DNA of 11,951 nt from Pseudofrankia asymbiotica (GTDB lineage: Bacteria; Actinomycetota; Actinomycetes; Frankiales; Frankiaceae): the NCBI RefSeq assembly GCF_001983105.1, contig NZ_MOMC01000111.1, forward strand, positions 9,268 through 21,218. The letters run 5' to 3'. Both the position numbers and the translations under genes were made by a program. Under the pieces are notes generated by a model, which ran no database searches, had not been told where the DNA came from, and saw only the letters and a program-made list of their open reading frames with translations. This document shows, piece after piece, positions 1-11,951 of this stretch; the first letter of the stretch is position 1; every line of letters starts with the position of its first letter.

Positions 1-511
1 GCGACAGCGGCCGGCCGTCGATGCCGAGCACGCACTCCAGCATCTTGGCGCGCTCGGCCTTCTCCAGGGACATCTCGTTGAGCGCCCATCCGGAGTAGAC
101 GACCTCGCCGCGGTGGCGGACGGTGACGTCGACCGTCATCCGCTCGTCGACGTGGTACTCCTTGCGGATCACGGCGTCGACCGTGGCCTCGAGCGCGTCG
201 GGCTCGGCCTCGGCGAGGAAGCCGACGTGGCCGAGGTTGACGCCGAGCAGCGGGATGTCGGCCGAGCGGGCGAGCTCGGCGCCGCGCAGCAGCGTGCCGT
301 CGCCGCCGAGCACGAGCACGAGCTCGACCCCGACCGCCGCGCTCTCGTCACGCGGGACCGTGCTCGGCAGGGTCAGGCCCAGGAACCCCGCCTCGTCGGC
401 CAGCATCCGGGGGGCGATCCCGGCGGTGGCGAGCCGGTCGAGCACCCACTGGGCGCGCCGGGCCATCCCGTCGCGGCGCGGGTGGGTGAGGACCAGGATC
501 TCCCGGCTCAT
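1..511 (-). CDS. nadK: NAD kinase, 5' part (gene continues past the left edge)
   Basis: ATP-dependent NAD kinase (PpnK/NadK), the cytosolic enzyme that phosphorylates NAD+ to NADP+. The 170 residues visible start MSREILVLTHPRRDGM and contain the family's GGDGT nucleotide-binding signature at residues 69-73, followed by LLGVNLGHVGFLAE. Further on comes the conserved ALNE segment with the NE pair expected to contact NAD. The ATG (509-511) overlaps the tlyA stop codon as ATGA, so translation is probably coupled to tlyA and no separate promoter is expected. tlyA-nadK is a conserved actinobacterial pair, usually followed by recN, which would lie outside the window. The C-terminal half, with the remaining NAD-binding fold, is missing only because the window ends. 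Family assignment is very secure. Confidence 0.96.
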   Translation of the reverse strand, partial: MSREILVLTHPRRDGMARRAQWVLDRLATAGIAPRMLADEAGFLGLTLPSTVPRDESAAVGVELVLVLGGDGTLLRGAELARSADIPLLGVNLGHVGFLAEAEPDALEATVDAVIRKEYHVDERMTVDVTVRHRGEVVYSGWALNEMSLEKAERAKMLECVLGIDGRPLS

Positions 512-1623
512 CGGGACGACCCCCCGCCCACCGCGGTGGTGGCGGCGGCCCGGGCGTCGCGGGCGGCCTGGCCGGCCGGACCGGCCGCGATCGCCTCGGC
601 GAGCGCCGCCGGGTCCAGCGCGGGCGCACCCGCCGTCAGCCACAGCAGGTACTCGACGTTGCCGGCCGGCCCCGGCAGCGGGCTGGCGACCACGCCCCGC
701 ACGCCGAGCCCAAGGCCGCCAGCCGCGTGGGCGATCCCCTCGACGGCCTCGGCGTGCAGCGCGACGTCGCGCACCACTCCGCCGGCGCCGAGCCGCTCGC
801 GCCCCACCTCGAACTGCGGTTTGACGAGCAGGACGAAGTCGGCGCCGCCGTCGGCGCAGGCGACGAGCGCGGGCAGCACCAGCCGCAGCGAGATGAACGA
901 CAGGTCGCCGACGACGAGGTCGACCGGCGCGCCGATGGCCTCGAGGGTCAGGTGCCGCGCGTTGGTCCGGTCGAGCACCCGGACGCGCGGGTCGGTGCGC
1001 AGCCGCCAGTCGAGCTGCCCGTAGCCCACGTCGACGGCGACCACCGAGGCGGCCCCCGCGCGCAGCAGCACGTCGGTGAACCCGCCGGTCGACGCGCCGA
1101 CGTCCATCGCCCGCCGCCCGGCGACACGCAGCGCCGGTCCCCCGTCCGGGCCCGGCACGCCGGCCGGGGCCTCCGGGGCCGTCGGAACGTCCAGATCGCC
1201 TGGCCCGGCCGGATCGCCCGGCCCTCGAGAGGGCGCGGGGGCACCCGGCGCGGTCTCGTCCCGCTCGGAGGCGGCCGCCGGCCCGCTCGGCGTCGACGCC
1301 GCCGACGCCGCCGAGGGCGAGGGCGAGGGCGAGGCGGCCACGGCCACCTGGCCGGTCGGGTTCCGCGCCGCGGTGTCCAGCGGGGGGACACCGAAGGCGG
1401 CGAAGGCGCCAAGCAGCTTGTGGGCGCCGCGTGAGGCGAAGCCCGGGTCGTCGCCGCCGGTGACGGCGATCGAGGTCGTGGCGTCCACGATCGTCGCCGC
1501 CTTGGTCGCGGCACGCCCGGCGACGAGCACGCGCCCGGCGGCGATCGCCTCGGTGGCCTGCTCCCGTGAACGGGCGAGGCCGCGGCGGACCAGCTCGCCG
1601 TCAAGTCTCATCCTGCGTGCCAC
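508..1623 (-). CDS. tlyA: TlyA-family rRNA (cytidine-2'-O)-methyltransferase with large insertion
   Basis: Ribosomal RNA 2'-O-ribose methyltransferase. Mycobacterial TlyA modifies 16S C1409 and 23S C1920, and its loss gives capreomycin resistance. I chose the GTG at 1621-1623 because it gives VARRMRLDGELVRRGLARSR, matching the M. tuberculosis N-terminus, with a GAGAGAG-like ribosome site upstream; the ATG at 1609-1611 is the alternative. An S4 RNA-binding domain spans about residues 5-65. The FtsJ/RrmJ-type methyltransferase has the SAM motif DVGASTGGF near 174 and a K-D-K-E set at K69 (RGAHK), D240 (GDLSF), K268 (LVKPQFEVG) and E324 (GNVEY). Two oddities: an insertion of about 86 Ala/Pro/Ser/Gly-rich residues (about 79-164) makes the protein 371 aa against about 268 aa in M. 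tuberculosis, and the RXWV interdomain tetrapeptide before SRGAHK is absent (DPGFASRG here). The gene lies 13 bases after the preceding gene and overlaps nadK by 4. Confidence 0.95.
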   Translation of the reverse strand: MARRMRLDGELVRRGLARSREQATEAIAAGRVLVAGRAATKAATIVDATTSIAVTGGDDPGFASRGAHKLLGAFAAFGVPPLDTAARNPTGQVAVAASPSPSPSAASAASTPSGPAAASERDETAPGAPAPSRGPGDPAGPGDLDVPTAPEAPAGVPGPDGGPALRVAGRRAMDVGASTGGFTDVLLRAGAASVVAVDVGYGQLDWRLRTDPRVRVLDRTNARHLTLEAIGAPVDLVVGDLSFISLRLVLPALVACADGGADFVLLVKPQFEVGRERLGAGGVVRDVALHAEAVEGIAHAAGGLGLGVRGVVASPLPGPAGNVEYLLWLTAGAPALDPAALAEAIAAGPAGQAARDARAAATTAVGGGSSR

Positions 1624-1636
1624 GGCTATCGCTCTC

Positions 1637-2014
1637 TCACCGCGGCCCGGGCCCGGGCACCGGCGGACCGGGACGCGGGAGGCCGCCGGGGACGGCCCGG
1701 GGCTGCCCGCCTGGGCGCCCGGGGGCACCAGCCGGGCCGGGGCGTGCCGGCTCCCCCGGCCGCGCCGGGCCGCCGGGGCGGCCGAAGGCGGCGCCCACCT
1801 GCTCGGCGTCCTCCGACGCGTCCAGTTCGGCGAGGGTGCCGGCGAGCAGCCGGTTGACCTCCTCGAAGACGGCGACGTGGTCGGCGACCGGCAGCTCGGG
1901 CAGCGCCGCGAGCGCGGCGGACGCCGCCCGCACGCCTTCGTCGCCGGCCCGCCCGGCTCCGGTCTCGTCCGGCGGCGCCGGGTCCGGACCGGGTGTTCCC
2001 GGCTCGGTGATCAC
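1637..2014 (-). CDS. Small conserved actinobacterial protein with Pro/Gly-rich tail, function unknown
   Basis: Hypothetical protein of 125 aa. The GTG start (2012-2014) has a GGGAGG ribosome site 8 bases upstream. Residues about 30-66 form a predicted helical core containing LPVADHVAVFEEVNRLL, which resembles the short proteins encoded immediately upstream of tlyA in many actinobacteria (Rv1693 holds that position in M. tuberculosis, from memory). The last 50 or so residues are almost entirely Gly, Pro, Arg and Ala and look disordered; relatives are typically only about 60 aa, so the tail appears to be an expansion. The stop codon is 13 bases before the tlyA start and part of the tlyA ribosome site overlaps it, so the two are probably co-transcribed. 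The reading frame stays open upstream to 3001, but that translation is not protein-like and the ribosome site fixes the start. No enzymatic motif is visible. Confidence 0.72.
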   Translation of the reverse strand: MITEPGTPGPDPAPPDETGAGRAGDEGVRAASAALAALPELPVADHVAVFEEVNRLLAGTLAELDASEDAEQVGAAFGRPGGPARPGEPARPGPAGAPGRPGGQPRAVPGGLPRPGPPVPGPGPR

Positions 2015-2957: not shown

Positions 2958-4112
2958 TCAGGCCGGGACGGCAAGGTCCGCGCAGCCACGGGGACGGTCA
3001 CTGGCTACCCGGCGCGGCGGGCGACCGGCGTCGAAAGCCGCCCAGGCGGCGAGGCAGGCGGCCCGCAGCGCGTCCAGGCCGTCATCCGGCACGCGGTCGC
3101 CACCAGCACCCTCGTCACCGCCCTCCGTCTCGCCGTGTGTGCCTCCGGCACCCCGCTCATGCCAGCGCAGGGTGCCCGCGTCGTCCACCTGGCACTCCCA
3201 GGCGCCGCAGCGGGCACGGCCGTCAGGGGCGAGGCGGGCCGGCGGGTGCGGGCGCAGCAGGCCGCGCAGGTCGTCGGCGAGCATGGTCGGACGGTGCGGG
3301 GGCCCGGCCGCGAGCAGCTCGGCGGGGGTCGCGACGCCGGTGAGCACCAGCAGCGTCGGCGTGCCTGTGCGGGCGCCGGCCTCGATGTCGGTGTCGAGCC
3401 GGTCGCCGACGATGACCGGCCGGCGGGCGCCGGAGCGACGCACCGACTCGGCGTGCATCACCGGCTCCGGCTTGCCGGTCACCAGCGGCTCGGCGCCGGT
3501 CGCCGCCCGGACCATCGCGACCAGGGCGCCGTTGCCCGGGGCGAGGCCACGCTCGGTCGGCACGGTCAGGTCCGCGTTGCTCGCGACCCACAGCGCCCCG
3601 GCACGCACCGCGAGTGCCGCCTCACTCAGCCGCTGGTAGGTCAGCTCGGGGTCGAATCCCTGGACGACGGCCAGCGGCTTGTCGCCCGCCGAGGTCACCG
3701 GCGTGAGCCCCTCGGCCGCTACGGCGGCGCGCAACCCCTCCCCGCCGACGACCAGTACCGCCGCGCCCGCCGGCAGCCGCTCGGCGAGCACGTGCGCCGC
3801 CGCCTGTGCCGACGTGATGACCTCATCCGGACGGGCCGGCACGCCGAACGCGGTGAGCCGGGCGGCGACCGCCTCCGGGGTACGCAGCGCGTTGTTCGTC
3901 ACGTAGGCGGAACGCATCCCGCGCTGCCCGGCCGCCGCGATCGCCTCGGCGGCGTGCGGCACGGCGCCGTCTCCCCGGTAGATCACGCCGTCGAGGTCGA
4001 GCAGGGCGACGTCGAACCGCTCAGCCGGCGCCGCCGTGCCGCTCAGGGGCGGCCCATAGGCCGGGTCGATCCCCTGGCCACGGGTGGGTGTCCGCTCTCC
4101 GGCCACGGTCAC
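2958..4112 (-). CDS. HAD-superfamily (subclass IIA) phosphatase, glycerol-3-phosphate-phosphatase-like
   Basis: Mg-dependent phosphatase of the HAD-IIA (NagD/pNPPase) group, 384 aa. Motif I is LLDLDGVIYRG with nucleophile D39 and acid/base D41; motif II is YVTNNA (T72); motif III is K214 in TGKPEP; motif IV is VGDRLDTDIEAG (D237, D242). The C2-type cap lies between motifs II and III. After about residue 295 there is an extra C-terminal region with RCGAWECQVD and a final helix. Such a C-terminal extension also occurs in M. tuberculosis Rv1692, the family member in the same position near tlyA, reported as a glycerol-3-phosphate phosphatase that recycles glycerophospholipid head groups. The substrate here is inferred from that neighbourhood. 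The start is uncertain: GTG at 4112 or 4106, neither with a clear ribosome site, and the conserved fold begins only at about residue 33. The upstream TPR gene ends 127 bases away. Confidence 0.9.
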   Translation of the reverse strand: MTVAGERTPTRGQGIDPAYGPPLSGTAAPAERFDVALLDLDGVIYRGDGAVPHAAEAIAAAGQRGMRSAYVTNNALRTPEAVAARLTAFGVPARPDEVITSAQAAAHVLAERLPAGAAVLVVGGEGLRAAVAAEGLTPVTSAGDKPLAVVQGFDPELTYQRLSEAALAVRAGALWVASNADLTVPTERGLAPGNGALVAMVRAATGAEPLVTGKPEPVMHAESVRRSGARRPVIVGDRLDTDIEAGARTGTPTLLVLTGVATPAELLAAGPPHRPTMLADDLRGLLRPHPPARLAPDGRARCGAWECQVDDAGTLRWHERGAGGTHGETEGGDEGAGGDRVPDDGLDALRAACLAAWAAFDAGRPPRRVASDRPRGCADLAVPA

Positions 4113-4239: not shown

Positions 4240-4671
4240 TCACGCGGAGCGGGCCCGGTTCAGGAGCGCGCGGGCCCCGCGCAGCTCCCGGCCGTAGTGC
4301 TGGATCTCCGGGCGCATCGCCGCGGCCAGGGCCAGGTGTTCGATCGCGGTGGGCAGGTCGCCGATGCGGCGGGCAGCCATCCCCAGGCCGAACTGGGCGT
4401 AGTCGTCGGTCGGGTCCTGCTCCACGATCCAGGCGAACGTCTCCCGCGCCGCGTCGTACTGCCCCGCGTCGAACTGGGCGCGGGCCAGCGCCTCGCGCGC
4501 GCTGCGTGACTCCGGCTCGGCGGCACAGGCGTGCGCCAGCAGCTGGATCGCCGCGTTGGCGTTGCCGTCTCCGTGCAGCGCGACACCGCGGGTGTACCAG
4601 TCGTACACGCTCCCGGCCGGCGAACCCGCCGGGCCGGACTGCCGCGCGCCCTCCTCGAACTGCTCGGACAT
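4240..4671 (-). CDS. Small tetratricopeptide-repeat protein (three TPRs)
   Basis: A 143-aa soluble protein made almost entirely of TPR helix pairs: about residues 22-55 (YDWYTRGVALHGDGNANAAI), 56-89 (ALARAQFDAGQYDAARETF) and 90-122 (AQFGLGMAARRIGDLPTAI). The first 20 residues are polar and probably disordered. There is no catalytic motif, so it is presumably a protein-protein interaction adaptor with unknown partner. The ATG at 4669-4671 has GGGAGG only 5 bases upstream, which fixes the start although the frame is open to 5469. It reads toward the phosphatase gene (gap 127 bases) and away from DUF1015. Actinobacterial genomes often keep a TPR protein beside this phosphatase, so a shared pathway is plausible but unproven. 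Confidence 0.88.
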   Translation of the reverse strand: MSEQFEEGARQSGPAGSPAGSVYDWYTRGVALHGDGNANAAIQLLAHACAAEPESRSAREALARAQFDAGQYDAARETFAWIVEQDPTDDYAQFGLGMAARRIGDLPTAIEHLALAAAMRPEIQHYGRELRGARALLNRARSA

Positions 4672-5275: not shown

Positions 5276-6613
5276 ATGGTTGACGACGCCGCCGCTGCCG
5301 CCGCTACCGACGTGCCCTCCCCCGCCGGCCTGGTTCTCGCCCCGTTCCGGGCGGCCAGGTTCACCGCCGCCGCCGGGGCCACCGAGAACCTGGCGGCGCT
5401 GACGTCCCCGCCGTACGACGTGATCGACGACGCGGGGGTGACGGCGTTGGAGGCCGCCGACCCGCACAACGTGGTCCGGCTGATCCTGCCCAGGGACCGC
5501 TCGGCTGACGAGCCCGGCAGCCGCTACGCGCGCGCGGCCGAGACCCTGGCCGACTGGTTGGGCTCCGGCGCTCTGGCGCGCGACGAGGCGCCCGCGCTCT
5601 ACGTCTACGAGGAGGAGCAGGACGGTCACCGCCAGCGCGGCCTCGTCGGCGCCGTCGCGCTCGCCGACCCGGACGCCGGGATCATCCTGCCGCACGAGAA
5701 CACCATGGCCGGCCCGGTCTCCGACCGACTGTCGCTACAGCAGGCGACACGGGCCAACCTCGAGCCGATCTTCCTGCTCTACGAGGGCGGCGGCGAGACC
5801 AGCCGGATCGTCGCGGAGACCGTCACCACCGAACCGCTGCTGGACACGGTCACCGATGACGGCGTCGCGCACCGGATCTGGGCGTTGAGCGAGCCGGCGA
5901 CGCTCCTCACGATCGCCACCGACCTGCTGCCGCGCCGCGCCGTGATCGCCGACGGCCACCACCGCTACGCGACCTACCGGCACTACCAGGCCGAACGGCA
6001 CGCCGCCGGCGACGGCCCCGGCCCGTGGGACTTCGGTCTGACCTTCCTCGTCGACGCGACCGTCTCCGGCCCGCAGGTGCATCCGATCCACCGGGCCGTG
6101 CGCGGCCTGTCCGTGGCCGAGGCCGCCCGCCGGGCGGAAGGCGCGTTCACCGTGCGTCAGCTGACCGCGGCGGGCACGACAGGCCGCGTCGACGTCACGC
6201 TGCTGCTCGACGAGCTGTCCAAGGCCGGCCAGGCCGGGCACGCGTTCGCCATCACCGACGGCCGCGACGCCTACCTGCTGACCGAGCCGAGCGCCGAGGT
6301 GCTGACCCGCAGCCTGCCGGCGGACCGCTCGGCGGCGTTCCGCGGCCTGGATGTCACGGTCGCGCACCTGACGCTGATCAGCGACGTCTGGGGCCAGGAG
6401 GACAAGGTCGGCGTCGTCGACTACTTCCACGACGCCCCGGCCGCGATCGCCGCGGTGGCGGACGGCGCCGGCACCGCGCTGCTACTCAACCCCACCCCGG
6501 TCGCCGGCGTGACGGCGGTCGCCGGGGCCGGCGAGCGCATGCCGCGCAAGTCGACCCTTTTCACCCCCAAGCCCCGCACCGGCCTGCTGATTCGCCTGCT
6601 CGACGAGTCCTGA
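5276..6613 (+). CDS. DUF1015 family protein
   Basis: Conserved protein of 445 aa, the usual length for DUF1015. Landmarks are FRAARF near the N-terminus, LTSPPYDVID (about residues 43-52), HNVVRLILP, the central ILPHENTM, and the signature ADGHHRYATY with D226-G-H228-H229-R230-Y231. The C-terminus contains LLNPTPV and RMPRKSTLFTPKPRTGLLIR. No signal peptide or membrane segment is seen. The His/Arg/Tyr cluster suggests an active site or phosphate-binding site, but I know no established reaction for this actinobacterial subgroup, so function is left open. The start was chosen for the leaderless promoter spacing and because upstream in-frame sequence is not protein-like. It is monocistronic on the plus strand, divergent from the TPR gene and convergent with the giant gene, and followed at once by a GC-rich hairpin. 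Confidence 0.92.
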   Translation: MVDDAAAAAATDVPSPAGLVLAPFRAARFTAAAGATENLAALTSPPYDVIDDAGVTALEAADPHNVVRLILPRDRSADEPGSRYARAAETLADWLGSGALARDEAPALYVYEEEQDGHRQRGLVGAVALADPDAGIILPHENTMAGPVSDRLSLQQATRANLEPIFLLYEGGGETSRIVAETVTTEPLLDTVTDDGVAHRIWALSEPATLLTIATDLLPRRAVIADGHHRYATYRHYQAERHAAGDGPGPWDFGLTFLVDATVSGPQVHPIHRAVRGLSVAEAARRAEGAFTVRQLTAAGTTGRVDVTLLLDELSKAGQAGHAFAITDGRDAYLLTEPSAEVLTRSLPADRSAAFRGLDVTVAHLTLISDVWGQEDKVGVVDYFHDAPAAIAAVADGAGTALLLNPTPVAGVTAVAGAGERMPRKSTLFTPKPRTGLLIRLLDES

Positions 6614-6783: not shown

Positions 6784-9700
6784 CTAGTCGCCCGTGTCCT
6801 CGTCGTCGGCGGGGCCCTCGCTCTTAGCCTCGGTGGGGGCTTCCTGACCCAGCGGCAGGCGCTCGGCGGCTGGGATCTCGCGCAGGCCCAGATCGCTGAA
6901 CAGCACGCTCAGGTCCGGCAGGCCGCCCGCGGGACGGGCGGCCTCGCGGCGAGCCGGCTCGGGCTCGACGTCGGCCGGCTCACCGGTGCCGAGGAGCGCG
7001 AGTGACGAGCTCCCATCGTCGAACAGCACCGGCGCGACGACCTTCGCGCCACCCGACTCCCGGGAGTCGCCCGAGTCCTGGTCGCCCTCCGCTGAGGCCT
7101 CATCGCTGATCGCCACGTCCGGGCCACCGGCCACCACGTCGCCACCGGCGGCCTCCTGGCTCGACGTGCCGGCGCCGCCCGGCACGACGTCACCCGAGGA
7201 CGCCACGTCAGCCGAGGACGCCACGTCAGCCGAGGACGCCACGGCGAGCGAGTCAGTCACGGCGGCCGAGTCACTCATGGCGGCCGAGTCGGTCACGGCA
7301 CCCGACTCAGTCACGGCGTCCGAGGCGTCCGCCGCTTCGGGCGCCGACGTTGTGGCGACGACCGGCTCGTCCGTGGAGGTGGCCTTCCGGGCGTCCTCGG
7401 CCGCGAGCTGGGTCATGAGCTCATAGGCGCGCTCGTTGGCGTCGGTCTCCTCCTCCTCGTCGATCGCCGCCGCCGCCTCGAACGCCCGCAGCGCGTCCCC
7501 CGGCCGGCCCGCGTCGAGCAGCGCCTCGGCGTAGGCATACCGCAGCCGGGCCGTCCACGGCCGTGGCTCGCCGGGCCGGGTCGCCTCGTCGTGGAGCAGA
7601 ACGACGGCGGCCTCCGGCTGCCCGAGGTCACGGCGCGCGCCGGAGCCGACCATCAGCAGCTCGGCGTGCCCAGCCGGGTCGAGCGTCTCGATCGACGGGT
7701 CGGTGAGGTAGGCGACGGCCCGCTCCGGGCGGCCAAGTCCGCGCTCGGCGTCCGCGATCATGGGCAGGTAGCGCGGCGAACCGTCCATCCGGCGGGCCGT
7801 GCGCAGTTCGACCAGCGCCGTCGCGTACTCCCCCGCGTGGTAGGCCGCGATGCCGGCGGCCTCCCTGGTCGCGGGCAGCCGGGCCGCGAGGCTCGCGGCC
7901 GCGCGGCCATGCGCGAGAGCGAGCGCCGGGTCGTCATCCAGGAACATCGCGGCGGCGACCAGGTGGCGTGCCACCACCTCGGCGAGACCGACCGGCAGGC
8001 CGCGCAGCTCCTTGCGGACCTCCAGGTCGAGCAGCTCGGGCTGCGCCTCGTCCGGCAGCGGCGGCGCCTCGACGCGTGGCCGGGTGGTCAACGCCGGCCC
8101 CTGGCCGCGTTCTCCCGGCCCGGCCCGACGATCCGTGACCCGCCCGGCGCGCCGGACCGGCCGGCCCGCATCGCCCTCATGCCCACGCGGCCCGCGTCCG
8201 GGAGCACCCGGCCGTGCCGCGGCACCGCCTCGCGGCCCCCGGTCACCGGCCCGAGGCGCACCCTGGCCGCGCGGCGACGTTCCCCAGCCGCCTTCGCGCC
8301 GGGGCCCTCTCGCCGCACCGGCCGCGTCGTCACGGGAGGCACCCGCCTCCCGACGGCGGTCCACGGACGCCGGCCGAGTCGAGGCCCGGTCGCCCCCCGT
8401 CTCGCTGGTGGTCCCGTGGGCCGCCGTGCCTCCTCCGGCCGGCGCGGGCGCGGCCGGGCCGTTCTGGCTCGCCGTCGCCTGGCCGGGCGCCGTGGCAGGC
8501 GCCGCCGCCGGCGCGGTGGTGCCCGGCCCTGCCGGCGGCGTGCGGCCGACGGTGGGCTCGGCCGATGTGGTCTCTCGGGCTACGGGCGCCGCGCCCTCGG
8601 CCGGCAGCGCCCAGGAGGGCGGACCCGTCGGGCGACGCTCGCCGCGATCACGGTCGTCGCGGGTGCTCCGGCCGTCGCCGTGCCCGCTTTCGCGCCCCTG
8701 ACGACGGTCGTCCCGGTGGCCGCGGTCCGGTCCGCCCGCGGCCCGGTCCTGGCGCCCGGCCGGCCGGTCGTAGCGCTGGCCGTCTCGCGACCCCTGGTCG
8801 GGCCGCGGCGAGCGATGAGGCGTCCGACCATCCTGGGCGCCACCCGCCCGGTCACGAGCACCGCCGGCGCGGCCCGCGCCGTAGCCGCTGGAACCACCAG
8901 AACCGCTGGAACCACTCGGCCGGTCACTCCGGTAGCTGGAACCGCCTGCACGGTCACCCCGGTAACCGCCAGAACCGCTCGAACCGCTGGAACCGCTGGA
9001 ACCGCTCGAACCGCTGGAACCGCTGGAACCGCTGGAACGGTCGCCCCGGTAGCCGCCGGTTCCGCTGGAACCGCCCGCGCGGTCGCTCCGATAACCGCCG
9101 GAACCGCCCGGACGGTCGCTCCGGTAACCACCAGAACCACTTGGACGGTCACTTCGGTACCCGGAACCGGCCGCACGGTCACCCCGGTAACCGCCAGAAC
9201 CGCTGGATCCACCGGATCCAGCTGATCCGCCTGAATTGCTGGAACCGCCCGCACCGTCATTCCGATAGCCACTGGAACCACCGGGACGGTCACCTCTGTA
9301 ACCGCTCGAACCGCTCGTCCGGTCGCCACGGTAGCCGGAACTACCCGTACGGTCACCGCTGTAGCTGGAGCCACCTGTGCGGTTACCGCCGTAGGTGGAA
9401 CCGCCCGCGCGGTCACCACCATGGCCGGGACCGCCTGTGCGGTCACCGCCGCGGTCCGGCCGCTCGGATCGGTCCGTTCCTGTTCCTCGCCGGTCCGCCT
9501 GGCCGGGCCGGTCGGACCAGGTCGGCCGACTGGGGCGCTCGCCGCGGTGATCATCCGCCCGGTCCGGTCGGCCAGCGCCCGTGGGCCGGTCGGAACGCCC
9601 GCTCCAGCTGGGACGCTCGGAACGCTGCCCGGCCCCGCGCCCCCAGCTGCCGGACTGGCCGGCCCCGCTGGCACCGCCTCGACCGGCGGATCCGTCGCGG

Positions 9701-10788
9701 CCGGACGGACGGTCGTCCCGTCGATCGCTCCGCTCGCCGCGCTCCTGCCATGGGCGCCCTGGCCCAGCTGGACGGTCGCTTCCGTGGCCGTCCCGCGCCG
9801 GCCCAGCCCGATGGCCCCGGTCGGCCGAACCAGCTGCCTGGCCGAAACGACGCGGGCGCTCCCCCGGCCCGTTCGCATCCGCGGACCAGGGACGCTCCGG
9901 CCGGCCGCCGGGACGCTCGGCACGGCTGTCACCGCCGGAACGGGCCGCCGCGCCCCAACTGGTCTGGCGGGTGCCGGCCGGCCGGCCACCGGCCGCGTCG
10001 CGCCCACCTGGGCGGCCCCCCTGCCCGGCATGGGTGGACGGCCCGGCGCCGCCTGACCTCTCACGCCAGCCGGAACCACCCCGTCCGCCGGAGGCACCAT
10101 CGCCGGCCGGGCGGTTACCTCCACGGAACCCGTCTCCGCCACGGGCGCCAGGTCCACCGCGGGCGTTGTCGCCGCCACGAAAGCCGTCGCCACCACGCGC
10201 GCCAGACCGGTCAGCACCGCCAGCACCCGCGTACGGCCGGCGGTTGCCCCGGTCGTCGCCGTCGCGGCGGTAGGAACCGGCGGGCGCTCCCGCGGGGCGG
10301 TCCGGCCGGGCACCGCCGGCTCCGCCAGCACCGCCGCGGGGACGCTCACCACTGCCCCATCGGGTCGCCGAACCGCCGGCACCACGGCCCGCGGTTCCGG
10401 CGGAGCCGCGTTCGCCGCGGAAGCCATCCCGACGCCGGTCGTCGCCCGACCCTCCGGCCTCGGCGGGTCGCTCACGCGACCATCCAGTCGCCTCACCACG
10501 TCCGGAGGCCTCGTCGCGCCGGTATCCTCCGGCGGCCCGGTTCGGCCCGCCGGCGGCCGAGGGCCGATGCGGCCGCTGGGCGCCCGCGCCCCCTGCTCCC
10601 CTCGGCTGGCCGCCGGCCGCGCGCCGCGCGCCCGCACCGCCACCGGCCGAGCGGGACCAGCCGCCGGCGCCGCCGTTTCCGCCACCGGCGCGGCCAGCGC
10701 GACGCGGGGCGGGGGTGGACCCTCGGGAAGCCGACGGACGTGCTGGCTCCCCACCTGTGGGAGACGGAGGGACTGCAGAGCTCGACAT
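6784..10788 (-). CDS. Giant Gly/Arg/Ser-rich disordered protein with C-terminal TPR-like domain
   Basis: 1334 aa from the ATG at 10786-10788, which has GGAAG 8 bases upstream; ATG 10794 and GTG 10812 are in-frame alternatives. Residues 1 to about 905 are low complexity: mainly Gly, Arg, Ser, Asp, Pro and Ala, few hydrophobics, no signal peptide. Residues about 446-639 hold nine YR[GS]DR motifs in Gly/Ser spacers plus looser variants. About 905-1130 is a folded helical-repeat region with TPR-like units (AAYHAGEYATALVELRTA, AEALLDAGRPGDALRAFEAA). The tail is acidic and Ser/Ala/Val-rich with two hexapeptide-repeat arrays, ending in DLSVLFSDLGLREIP and a Glu/Asp-rich stretch. The C-terminal half resembles the TPR-like protein encoded near tyrS-tlyA in actinobacteria (Rv1691 position). 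No function is established; RG-rich composition suggests nucleic-acid binding or self-assembly. The continuous 4-kb frame and the recognisable C-terminal domain in the same frame argue that the repeats are translated. Confidence 0.85.
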   Translation of the reverse strand: MSSSAVPPSPTGGEPARPSASRGSTPAPRRAGRAGGGNGGAGGWSRSAGGGAGARRAAGGQPRGAGGAGAQRPHRPSAAGGPNRAAGGYRRDEASGRGEATGWSRERPAEAGGSGDDRRRDGFRGERGSAGTAGRGAGGSATRWGSGERPRGGAGGAGGARPDRPAGAPAGSYRRDGDDRGNRRPYAGAGGADRSGARGGDGFRGGDNARGGPGARGGDGFRGGNRPAGDGASGGRGGSGWRERSGGAGPSTHAGQGGRPGGRDAAGGRPAGTRQTSWGAAARSGGDSRAERPGGRPERPWSADANGPGERPRRFGQAAGSADRGHRAGPARDGHGSDRPAGPGRPWQERGERSDRRDDRPSGRDGSAGRGGASGAGQSGSWGRGAGQRSERPSWSGRSDRPTGAGRPDRADDHRGERPSRPTWSDRPGQADRRGTGTDRSERPDRGGDRTGGPGHGGDRAGGSTYGGNRTGGSSYSGDRTGSSGYRGDRTSGSSGYRGDRPGGSSGYRNDGAGGSSNSGGSAGSGGSSGSGGYRGDRAAGSGYRSDRPSGSGGYRSDRPGGSGGYRSDRAGGSSGTGGYRGDRSSGSSGSSGSSGSSGSSGSSGSGGYRGDRAGGSSYRSDRPSGSSGSGGSSGYGAGRAGGARDRAGGAQDGRTPHRSPRPDQGSRDGQRYDRPAGRQDRAAGGPDRGHRDDRRQGRESGHGDGRSTRDDRDRGERRPTGPPSWALPAEGAAPVARETTSAEPTVGRTPPAGPGTTAPAAAPATAPGQATASQNGPAAPAPAGGGTAAHGTTSETGGDRASTRPASVDRRREAGASRDDAAGAARGPRREGGWGTSPRGQGAPRAGDRGPRGGAAARPGAPGRGPRGHEGDAGRPVRRAGRVTDRRAGPGERGQGPALTTRPRVEAPPLPDEAQPELLDLEVRKELRGLPVGLAEVVARHLVAAAMFLDDDPALALAHGRAAASLAARLPATREAAGIAAYHAGEYATALVELRTARRMDGSPRYLPMIADAERGLGRPERAVAYLTDPSIETLDPAGHAELLMVGSGARRDLGQPEAAVVLLHDEATRPGEPRPWTARLRYAYAEALLDAGRPGDALRAFEAAAAIDEEEETDANERAYELMTQLAAEDARKATSTDEPVVATTSAPEAADASDAVTESGAVTDSAAMSDSAAVTDSLAVASSADVASSADVASSGDVVPGGAGTSSQEAAGGDVVAGGPDVAISDEASAEGDQDSGDSRESGGAKVVAPVLFDDGSSSLALLGTGEPADVEPEPARREAARPAGGLPDLSVLFSDLGLREIPAAERLPLGQEAPTEAKSEGPADDEDTGD
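7189..7242. repeat. 18-base tandem repeat, three copies, inside the giant gene
   Basis: Unit GTCAGCCGAGGACGCCAC at 7207-7224 and 7225-7242, with a one-base variant at 7189-7206. It encodes SADVAS-type hexapeptides in the tail. Confidence 0.9.
7244..7315. repeat. Second 18-base tandem repeat, four diverged copies
   Basis: Units at 7244-7261, 7262-7279, 7280-7297 and 7298-7315 (for example GCGGCCGAGTCGGTCACG). They encode VTDSAA-like hexapeptides directly adjoining the SADVAS array, with the same period but different sequence. Confidence 0.85.
8870..9450. repeat. YR[GS]DR-encoding degenerate repeat array inside the giant gene
   Basis: Degenerate repeats built on CGGTC(A/G)C(C/T)(C/T)CGGTA and glycine/serine codons on the minus strand. 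Translation gives nine YR[GS]DR units, with relaxed forms YRND, YSGDR and YGGNR at the upstream end. Spacers are mainly Gly and Ser with Pro or Ala after the second Arg. Boundaries are approximate. Confidence 0.85.
8971..9033. repeat. 9-base minisatellite encoding (SSG)n
   Basis: Seven uninterrupted copies of (A/C/G)GAACCGCT, differing only in the first base, within the YR[GS]DR array. They encode alternating Ser-Ser-Gly. The 9-base period keeps the frame if copies are gained or lost. Confidence 0.92.
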
Positions 10789-10861
10789 CGTCATCGCTTC
10801 CGATCGGCCCACGCCATCGTGGGTTCCACTGTTGACTTCTAGTTACGGTCGTCTGGCTTCA

Positions 10862-11530: not shown

Positions 11531-11951
11531 CTACTCGGTCTCGAGGAGTCCCTGGACCTGGCCAGCGCGGGACGCCGTCCGTGCGCCGACGCCGAGCACC
11601 TGCAGAAAGCCTTCGGAATCCTTGTGGTCGAAGGCTCCGACCCGGCTCATCGACGCGTCCTCCTCGCTGTAGAGCGAGTGCGGGATGTCCGCCGCGCCGG
11701 CGAAGTTGACGGTGCCCCGGTAGAGCTCAAGGGTGATCGAGCCGGTAGCGAGCTGGGCGACCTCGGAGACGACCTTGCGCGCGAGCTGCGAGCCAAGGTC
11801 CTCGCCATAGGCCTGGTACAGCTGCTCGCCGAGGAAGTCCGACGCGAACTCGAAGATCTTCCTGGCCCGGCGGTCGAGAATCGTCTGCAACAGGTACTCG
11901 TAGGCGCTGCCCAGCAGCTCCATGCCGGGCGCCTCATAGACACCACGGGAC
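11531..11951 (-). CDS. argG: Argininosuccinate synthase, C-terminal part (gene continues past the right edge)
   Basis: Last 139 residues of argininosuccinate synthase, the ATP-dependent enzyme that joins citrulline and aspartate in arginine biosynthesis. The visible part opens with SRGVYEAPGMELLGSAYEYL, the conserved SRG(I/V)YEAPG region found in known ArgG proteins. It continues with a helical segment, then GSITLELYRG and SLYSEEDASM, comparable to SLYNEE..SM of animal enzymes, and ends at TAG 11531-11533. The catalytic N-terminal PP-loop domain is outside the window. The helical linker before GSITLELYRG does not look like the short bacterial (type 1) or E. coli-type sequence I remember, so subtype is left open. 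The gene is probably not co-transcribed with the giant gene 742 bases downstream. Confidence 0.88.
   Translation of the reverse strand, partial: SRGVYEAPGMELLGSAYEYLLQTILDRRARKIFEFASDFLGEQLYQAYGEDLGSQLARKVVSEVAQLATGSITLELYRGTVNFAGAADIPHSLYSEEDASMSRVGAFDHKDSEGFLQVLGVGARTASRAGQVQGLLETE

Follow-up and report, generated by a model that had tools for sequence, protein, structure and literature searches.

An actinobacterial gene that seems to encode a very large protein, with a low-complexity segment in front of a single recognizable domain, raises two questions: whether the low-complexity segment is made at all, and what a protein of this build could do. We addressed both in a window of 11,951 nucleotides from Pseudofrankia asymbiotica (contig NZ_MOMC01000111.1). 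An earlier reading, made from the sequence alone, had described about 900 of the 1,334 residues as low-complexity and Gly/Arg/Ser-rich and the remainder as containing a TPR-like domain. The open reading frame and its composition were confirmed, with Ala also abundant. The features of the window are collected in Table 1.

Table 1. Features of the window (positions are those of the 11,951-nucleotide stretch)
Feature	Position	Strand	Remarks
TlyA-family rRNA 2'-O-methyltransferase	508..1728	(-)	Pfam/NCBIfam; conserved downstream neighbor
HAD-IIA family hydrolase	2958..4112	(-)	Pfam/NCBIfam; conserved downstream neighbor
Small TPR protein	4240-4617		Pfam TPR_16 above cutoff; syntenic copies L122, L123, L034, L036, L037, L084
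DUF1015 gene	5300-6613	(+)	Convergent with the giant gene; also adjoins the orthologue in L113, L117, L122, L123
CDS, 1,334-aa protein	6784..10788	(-)	Stop codon included
Mildly acidic C-tail, residues 1134-1334	6787..7389	(-)	41 D/E, 10 K/R
Conserved TPR solenoid domain, residues 907-1133	7390..8070	(-)	Profile and AlphaFold model
Arg/Gly-rich, Lys-free low-complexity N-tail, residues 1-900	8089..10788	(-)	Composition; translated according to the coding test
Block with nine YR[GS]DR motifs, residues 466-650	8839..9393	(-)	Tandem-repeat expansion
Ribosome-binding-like GGAAG	10797..10801	(-)	8 nt before ATG 10788
Argininosuccinate synthase C-terminal part	11531-11950		Upstream of the giant gene; likewise upstream in L034, L036, L037

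An Arg/Gly-rich tail precedes a TPR domain

In the list of open reading frames, the ATG start yields the 1,334-residue protein, and the longest in-frame start, a GTG at 10812, yields 1,342 residues. The N terminus MSSSAVPP is common to all six congeners in a protein-guided comparison. Residues 1 to 900 are 27% G, 17% R, 13% A, and 12% S; they include no Lys and a total of nine Leu, Ile, Val, and Met residues. RGG triplets number 10 per 930 residues of the window protein, and DR is commoner than RG. The last 201 residues are encoded by DNA with 18- to 36-bp tandem repeats; the 18-bp repeats at window positions 7187 to 7324, in the acidic C-tail region, are a second repeat expansion within the same gene.

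The TPR match of the domain lies below the Pfam cutoff, and NCBIfam gave none. The AlphaFold model is nonetheless a clear TPR solenoid with the tandem helix-turn-helix arrangement that defines the TPR superfamily, bearing out the TPR-like domain of the sequence-only reading, and the matches listed are mainly TPR proteins. A profile of the conserved domain (A1, with the window domain as its first row) matched the designed PPR protein 6een at 3e-10, without any single stretch passing alone. Identity as PPR, an RNA-binding repeat, was set aside, the listed matches being mainly TPR proteins. No RRM or other RNA-binding domain was recognized in the window protein by Pfam at E values up to 0.1 or by NCBIfam.

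The gene lies close behind rRNA in most informative genomes outside the genus

Of 246 genomes from the class, 233 contain the domain according to profile A1 at E ≤ 1e-10; for the phylum the count is 150 of 396, and members outside the class are more divergent. For comparison of loci, we sampled 86 orthologues, one per genome, spread over families and with long contigs preferred; seven are from the genus of the window. Orthologues with a domain score above 180 bits are termed close, and the remainder are termed distant.

Rfam rRNA operons were first seen just upstream of the orthologue in Frankia-like, streptomycete-like, and other loci. We then checked all 79 fetched genomes outside the genus, 10 of which were uninformative (too little upstream sequence and no rRNA visible). 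A 5S or 23S gene lay within 600 nt upstream on the same strand in 55 of the 69 informative genomes (42/50 close, 13/19 distant), a raw tally, uncorrected for kinship or chance, that includes a few genomes counted through a 5S gene visible at a contig end. If all ten uninformative genomes were misses, the figure would be 55/79. Four of the remaining informative genomes have rRNA at 625 to 865 nt; in the other ten it lies at a greater distance (2.6 and 4.9 kb) or is absent from the 3.6 to 9.2 kb seen. None of the rRNA matches in the 79 genomes was on the opposite strand. The unexpected part of the analysis, as judged from gene positions, is that a TPR-family gene is tied to rRNA operons in the majority of the informative genomes that were sampled.

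Distances are larger in the genus itself. A 5S gene was found upstream at 3.3 kb (G001), 2.4 kb (G004), and 6.9 kb (G005), and in G003 part of a 16S gene was matched at 6.6 kb; Rfam found no rRNA within reach upstream in the other three fetched congeners, nor in the window or its own contig, which ends approximately 4.3 kb upstream of the gene. Other genes stand between the rRNA and the orthologue in congeners L034, L036, and L037. The mycobacterium-like loci L076 to L078 and L136 have no rRNA seen upstream and yet keep both gene and tail, and tail length in mycobacterium-like loci does not follow rRNA presence (43 to 45 and 85 aa without rRNA, 40 to 59 aa with it). Many draft contigs begin shortly before the orthologue, a pattern that probably reflects the failure of short-read assembly at the rRNA or in the low-complexity tail.

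Genomes with two copies offer another view of the linkage. The class sample has four of them, G221, G472, G428, and G568, and the first three were examined. In G221 and G472, which belong to one genus, the two copies share a 99% identical block of 6.7 to 6.8 kb that runs from approximately 425 nt before the 16S gene to within approximately 25 nt of the stop codon of the orthologue. The duplicated block is rrn plus the orthologue (L167/L168 and L137/L138), and its near identity raises the possibility that the unit as a whole undergoes gene conversion. In G428, from another family, both copies (L170/L171) lie behind 5S/23S.

A strong hairpin follows the 5S gene at most loci. Automatic hairpin ends were mis-set at several of them, including L139 and L167, and automatic distances are rough; read by eye, the start codon at these two loci falls 14 to 17 nt past the hairpin. 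Such a gap leaves no room for a promoter, which suggests read-through of the rRNA terminator at L139 and L167. At streptomycete-like and mycobacterium-like loci, -10-like boxes were read from the sequence between the rRNA and the gene, and an own promoter is likely there. Given these boxes, read-through was not adopted as the general mode of expression.

The gene order HAD, tlyA, nadK downstream is shared by the window and its relatives. The other window neighbors recognized by Pfam/NCBIfam are an SCP2-like gene (+) and an NAD kinase gene cut by the window end. The rRNA methyltransferase that had been noticed nearby from sequence is identified by Pfam and NCBIfam as TlyA, and tyrS, which had been expected in relatives, was found at the mycobacterial locus L129, where it precedes rrn. 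Excerpts of two papers place rrnB behind tyrS, in agreement with this order (PMC10218544; PMC6089878).

Mycobacterial counterparts and the weight of gene position

Gene order, annotation, and the mycobacterial relatives of L129 (77 to 96% identity among the matches listed) lead us to infer that the window family is the Rv1691/MSMEG_3754-type actinobacterial TPR family. The gene order around Rv1691 was taken from an excerpted M. tuberculosis operon list (PMC3072309), and the pairing of MSMEG_3754 with Rv1691 is that of the authors of a study, seen in excerpt, of M. smegmatis proteins (PMC7092591). Both proteins appear to resemble the window protein in having the same kind of TPR domain and HAD, tlyA, and nadK downstream; mycobacterium-like loci also share an Arg-rich tail, though a short one. 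They would differ from it in that the tail measures about 40 to 60 aa and no acidic C-tail follows, whereas the window protein has a 900-aa tail and an acidic C-tail.

In the excerpted study, MSMEG_3754 is among the high-confidence proteins pulled down with RNA polymerase beta from formaldehyde-cross-linked M. smegmatis (PMC7092591). Since formaldehyde was used and 275 proteins were reported, the pull-down is weak evidence of direct contact. FLAG-MSMEG_3754 recovered no DNA according to the same excerpt (PMC7092591), and contact with the polymerase through RNA or protein would fit. MSMEG_3754 also appears in a ClpC1 interactome list (PMC10433963, excerpt), and in the excerpt of another paper Rv1691 is merely named in a table (PMC11754781). 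Among the open-licence PMC matches listed, there was no description of the gene behind rRNA or of its function.

The main rival to a functional tie is positional inertia: an ancestral tyrS-rrn-TPR-HAD-tlyA order persisted, the adjacent rRNA has no meaning, and the protein serves some other process, such as proteostasis or metabolism, in which it might be a TPR adaptor. The neighbors tyrS and tlyA/nadK are indeed kept as well, the gene is retained in genomes where no rRNA is visible beside it, and the ClpC1 interactome entry is in keeping with a role in proteostasis. However, duplicated rrn copies carry the gene along and end near its stop codon, adjacency to rRNA recurs in the distant members, and the RNA polymerase pull-down also speaks against inertia. 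We consider inertia doubtful on this evidence.

The design of the tail, not its sequence, persists in the family

Tail properties were compared in the 79 of 86 loci that are uncut at the 5' side, the other seven being truncated. Tail length ranges from 16 to 897 aa with a median of 232, although start codons were set by a simple ribosome-site rule and individual lengths can be off. The window protein, which had been presented as a giant rare among bacteria, proves to be the long-tailed end of a widespread family. One of the 79 tails is shorter than 20 aa; among the other 78, Arg accounts for at least 15% of residues in 77, the exception being L097. The median Lys content of tails is 0 in close and 1.1% in distant members, and R/(R+K) is higher in the tail than in the protein's own domain in 69 of the 78 (53/59 close, 16/19 distant). 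Alignability of the tail is lost between genera. C-tails of at least 40 aa, acidic at the median, occur in 28/59 close and 2/19 distant members. The persisting trait, to judge from these comparisons, is the design, an Arg-rich, Lys-poor N-tail before a conserved TPR domain, while sequence and length drift.

L086 and L081 (G295 and G305) have an N-tail of merely 16 to 22 aa and a C-terminal extension of 347 to 415 aa, as if the low-complexity part had moved to the opposite end.

Drift of this kind might mean that the protein works through its TPR domain and that the Arg/Gly tail is a passive solubility or spacer segment under a loose constraint on composition. The wide range of tail lengths, the loss of alignability, and the building of part of the tail by repeat expansion are what a passive segment would display. 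A neutral spacer does not predict a high Arg content in all tails but one with Lys nearly absent, nor an R/(R+K) above that of the domain in close and distant members alike, and we regard a purely passive tail as unlikely.

A regular Tyr/Arg "sticker" pattern had also been read from the window sequence. The nine YR[GS]DR motifs are real and far above chance (mean of 0.015 and maximum of 2 in 2,000 shuffles). They lie within or beside 30- to 33-bp tandem-repeat arrays and thus represent expansions, not nine independent events. The nearest congener has five copies and the other five congeners have 0 to 1, so the Tyr/YR motif is peculiar to the window species and its nearest relative, and YR[GS]DR was rejected as a conserved motif given its 0 to 5 copies across six congeners. 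In other members of the family, Phe, Tyr, or Trp is favored among the aromatics, which are few or absent in short tails. Among tails of at least 100 aa, aromatics reach 2% or more in 40/50 close and 3/9 distant members; in tails of at least 100 aa with at least five aromatics, aromatic-Arg pairs exceed the expectation from composition in 32 of 43.

The low-complexity tail is translated by comparative evidence

As a coding test, the window gene was aligned to those of congeners L038 and L036 at the DNA level only, without regard to frame. With L038, whose domain is 97% identical, all 10 of the tail indels have lengths divisible by three, and first, second, and third codon positions differ by 11.8, 5.8, and 23.0%, respectively. 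L036 is more distant; 16 of its 25 indels fit a multiple of three, and those that do not are clustered in residues 715 to 837, where the alignment is unsure. The corresponding differences are 29.9, 23.5, and 38.2%. An excess at third positions was likewise present against six congeners in the protein-guided comparison. GC3 is 0.56 to 0.86 in the tail versus about 0.92 in the domain, which is unusual for a high-GC gene. Within the genus, the domain occurs in 8/8 genomes and open frames of 1,107 to 1,352 aa occur in 7/8, the eighth being cut by a contig end. Orthologues lacking a Gly/Arg-rich N terminus, which the sequence-only reading had singled out as evidence against itself, did not emerge, since short tails are also Arg-rich: those of 40 to 45 aa in the mycobacterium-like L076 to L078, L129, L135, and L146 are 21 to 27% Arg. 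We conclude from these DNA comparisons that the Arg/Gly-rich N-tail is translated in frame with the TPR domain. The idea that the frame is open by chance because the DNA is so rich in GC, with translation truly starting near residue 900, was rejected as highly improbable, for although long frames lie on both strands of the region, its GC content reaches 82%, and its GC3 is low for coding DNA, the indels in threes, the codon-position bias, the conserved start with its ribosome-binding-like site, and the same kind of Arg-rich tail throughout the family all speak for coding.

A tentative role in rRNA synthesis or ribosome assembly

The reading that we favor, with somewhat less than even confidence, is that the gene encodes a scaffold, linked to rrn and able to bind RNA, that serves the synthesis of rRNA or the assembly of ribosomes. 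The TPR domain would dock on a single partner protein of the machinery for transcription or ribosome assembly, either RNA polymerase or a component close to it. The multivalent Arg-rich, often aromatic tail would bind pre-rRNA as it is transcribed, and the polymerase, the rRNA, and factors for modification or assembly, TlyA among them, would in this way be kept together at the rrn locus. A long tail such as that of the window protein would confer higher multivalency and possibly condensation.

Support for the scaffold comes from a tail that is in frame and almost always Arg-rich, from rRNA within 600 nt in most informative genomes and the duplications of rrn with the gene, and from tlyA synteny and the presence of MSMEG_3754 in the RNA polymerase pull-down. 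Against it stand the lack of a recognized RNA-binding domain in the window protein; the failure of FLAG-MSMEG_3754 to recover DNA; the 14 of 69 informative genomes without rRNA within 600 nt and the distance of at least 2.4 kb in the window's own genus; the weakness of the pull-down as to direct contact; the loci L076 to L078 and L136, which keep gene and tail with no visible rRNA; tails of 16 to 48 aa, too short for much multivalency; and the scarcity of aromatics in distant tails. An RNA-linked scaffold had been guessed from sequence; rRNA adjacency, tlyA/tyrS synteny, and the polymerase pull-down make the RNA link stronger, while condensation and RNA binding stay conjectural.

A bolder form of the scaffold, which we think improbable, is a nucleolus-like actinobacterial protein, RG-rich and anchored by its TPR domain, encoded as the protein-coding tail of the rRNA operon. 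Its synthesis would keep pace with that of rRNA, perhaps through terminator read-through in some taxa, and it would gather RNA polymerase, pre-rRNA, and modification enzymes at rrn.

In E. coli, clustering of rrn and RNA polymerase condensates are known; knowledge of the mechanism of clustering stops at cis elements, and trans factors are under study, according to an excerpted account (PMC12037070). That system resembles the proposed role in its spatial grouping of rrn and polymerase; it differs in that the excerpt names sigma factors, NusB, and omega, an RG-rich TPR scaffold being absent from that text (PMC12037070). In actinobacteria, a scaffold that is rich in Arg, binds RNA, and is made next to rRNA would be a natural candidate for such a factor. 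If the scaffold reading is true, actinobacteria own a scaffold devoted to making rRNA or assembling ribosomes, overlooked because of its divergent TPR domain, its low-complexity tail, and draft assemblies that break at the neighboring rRNA; what gathers bacterial rRNA genes and RNA polymerase would become testable by deleting or trimming one gene.

Two other kinds of disordered protein invite comparison. Eukaryotic RG/RGG proteins, both FUS-like and of the nucleolar GAR type, have an Arg/Gly-rich disordered tail with aromatics, as the window protein probably does. Unlike FUS/RGG proteins, the window protein has few RGG triplets, no RNA-recognition domain found, a TPR partner domain, and no homology to them. 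RNase E-based bacterial RNP bodies are built on a scaffold with a charged disordered region. The window protein differs from RNase E in having a TPR domain instead of a nuclease domain and resembles it as a putative bacterial scaffold with a charged disordered region that could gather RNA.
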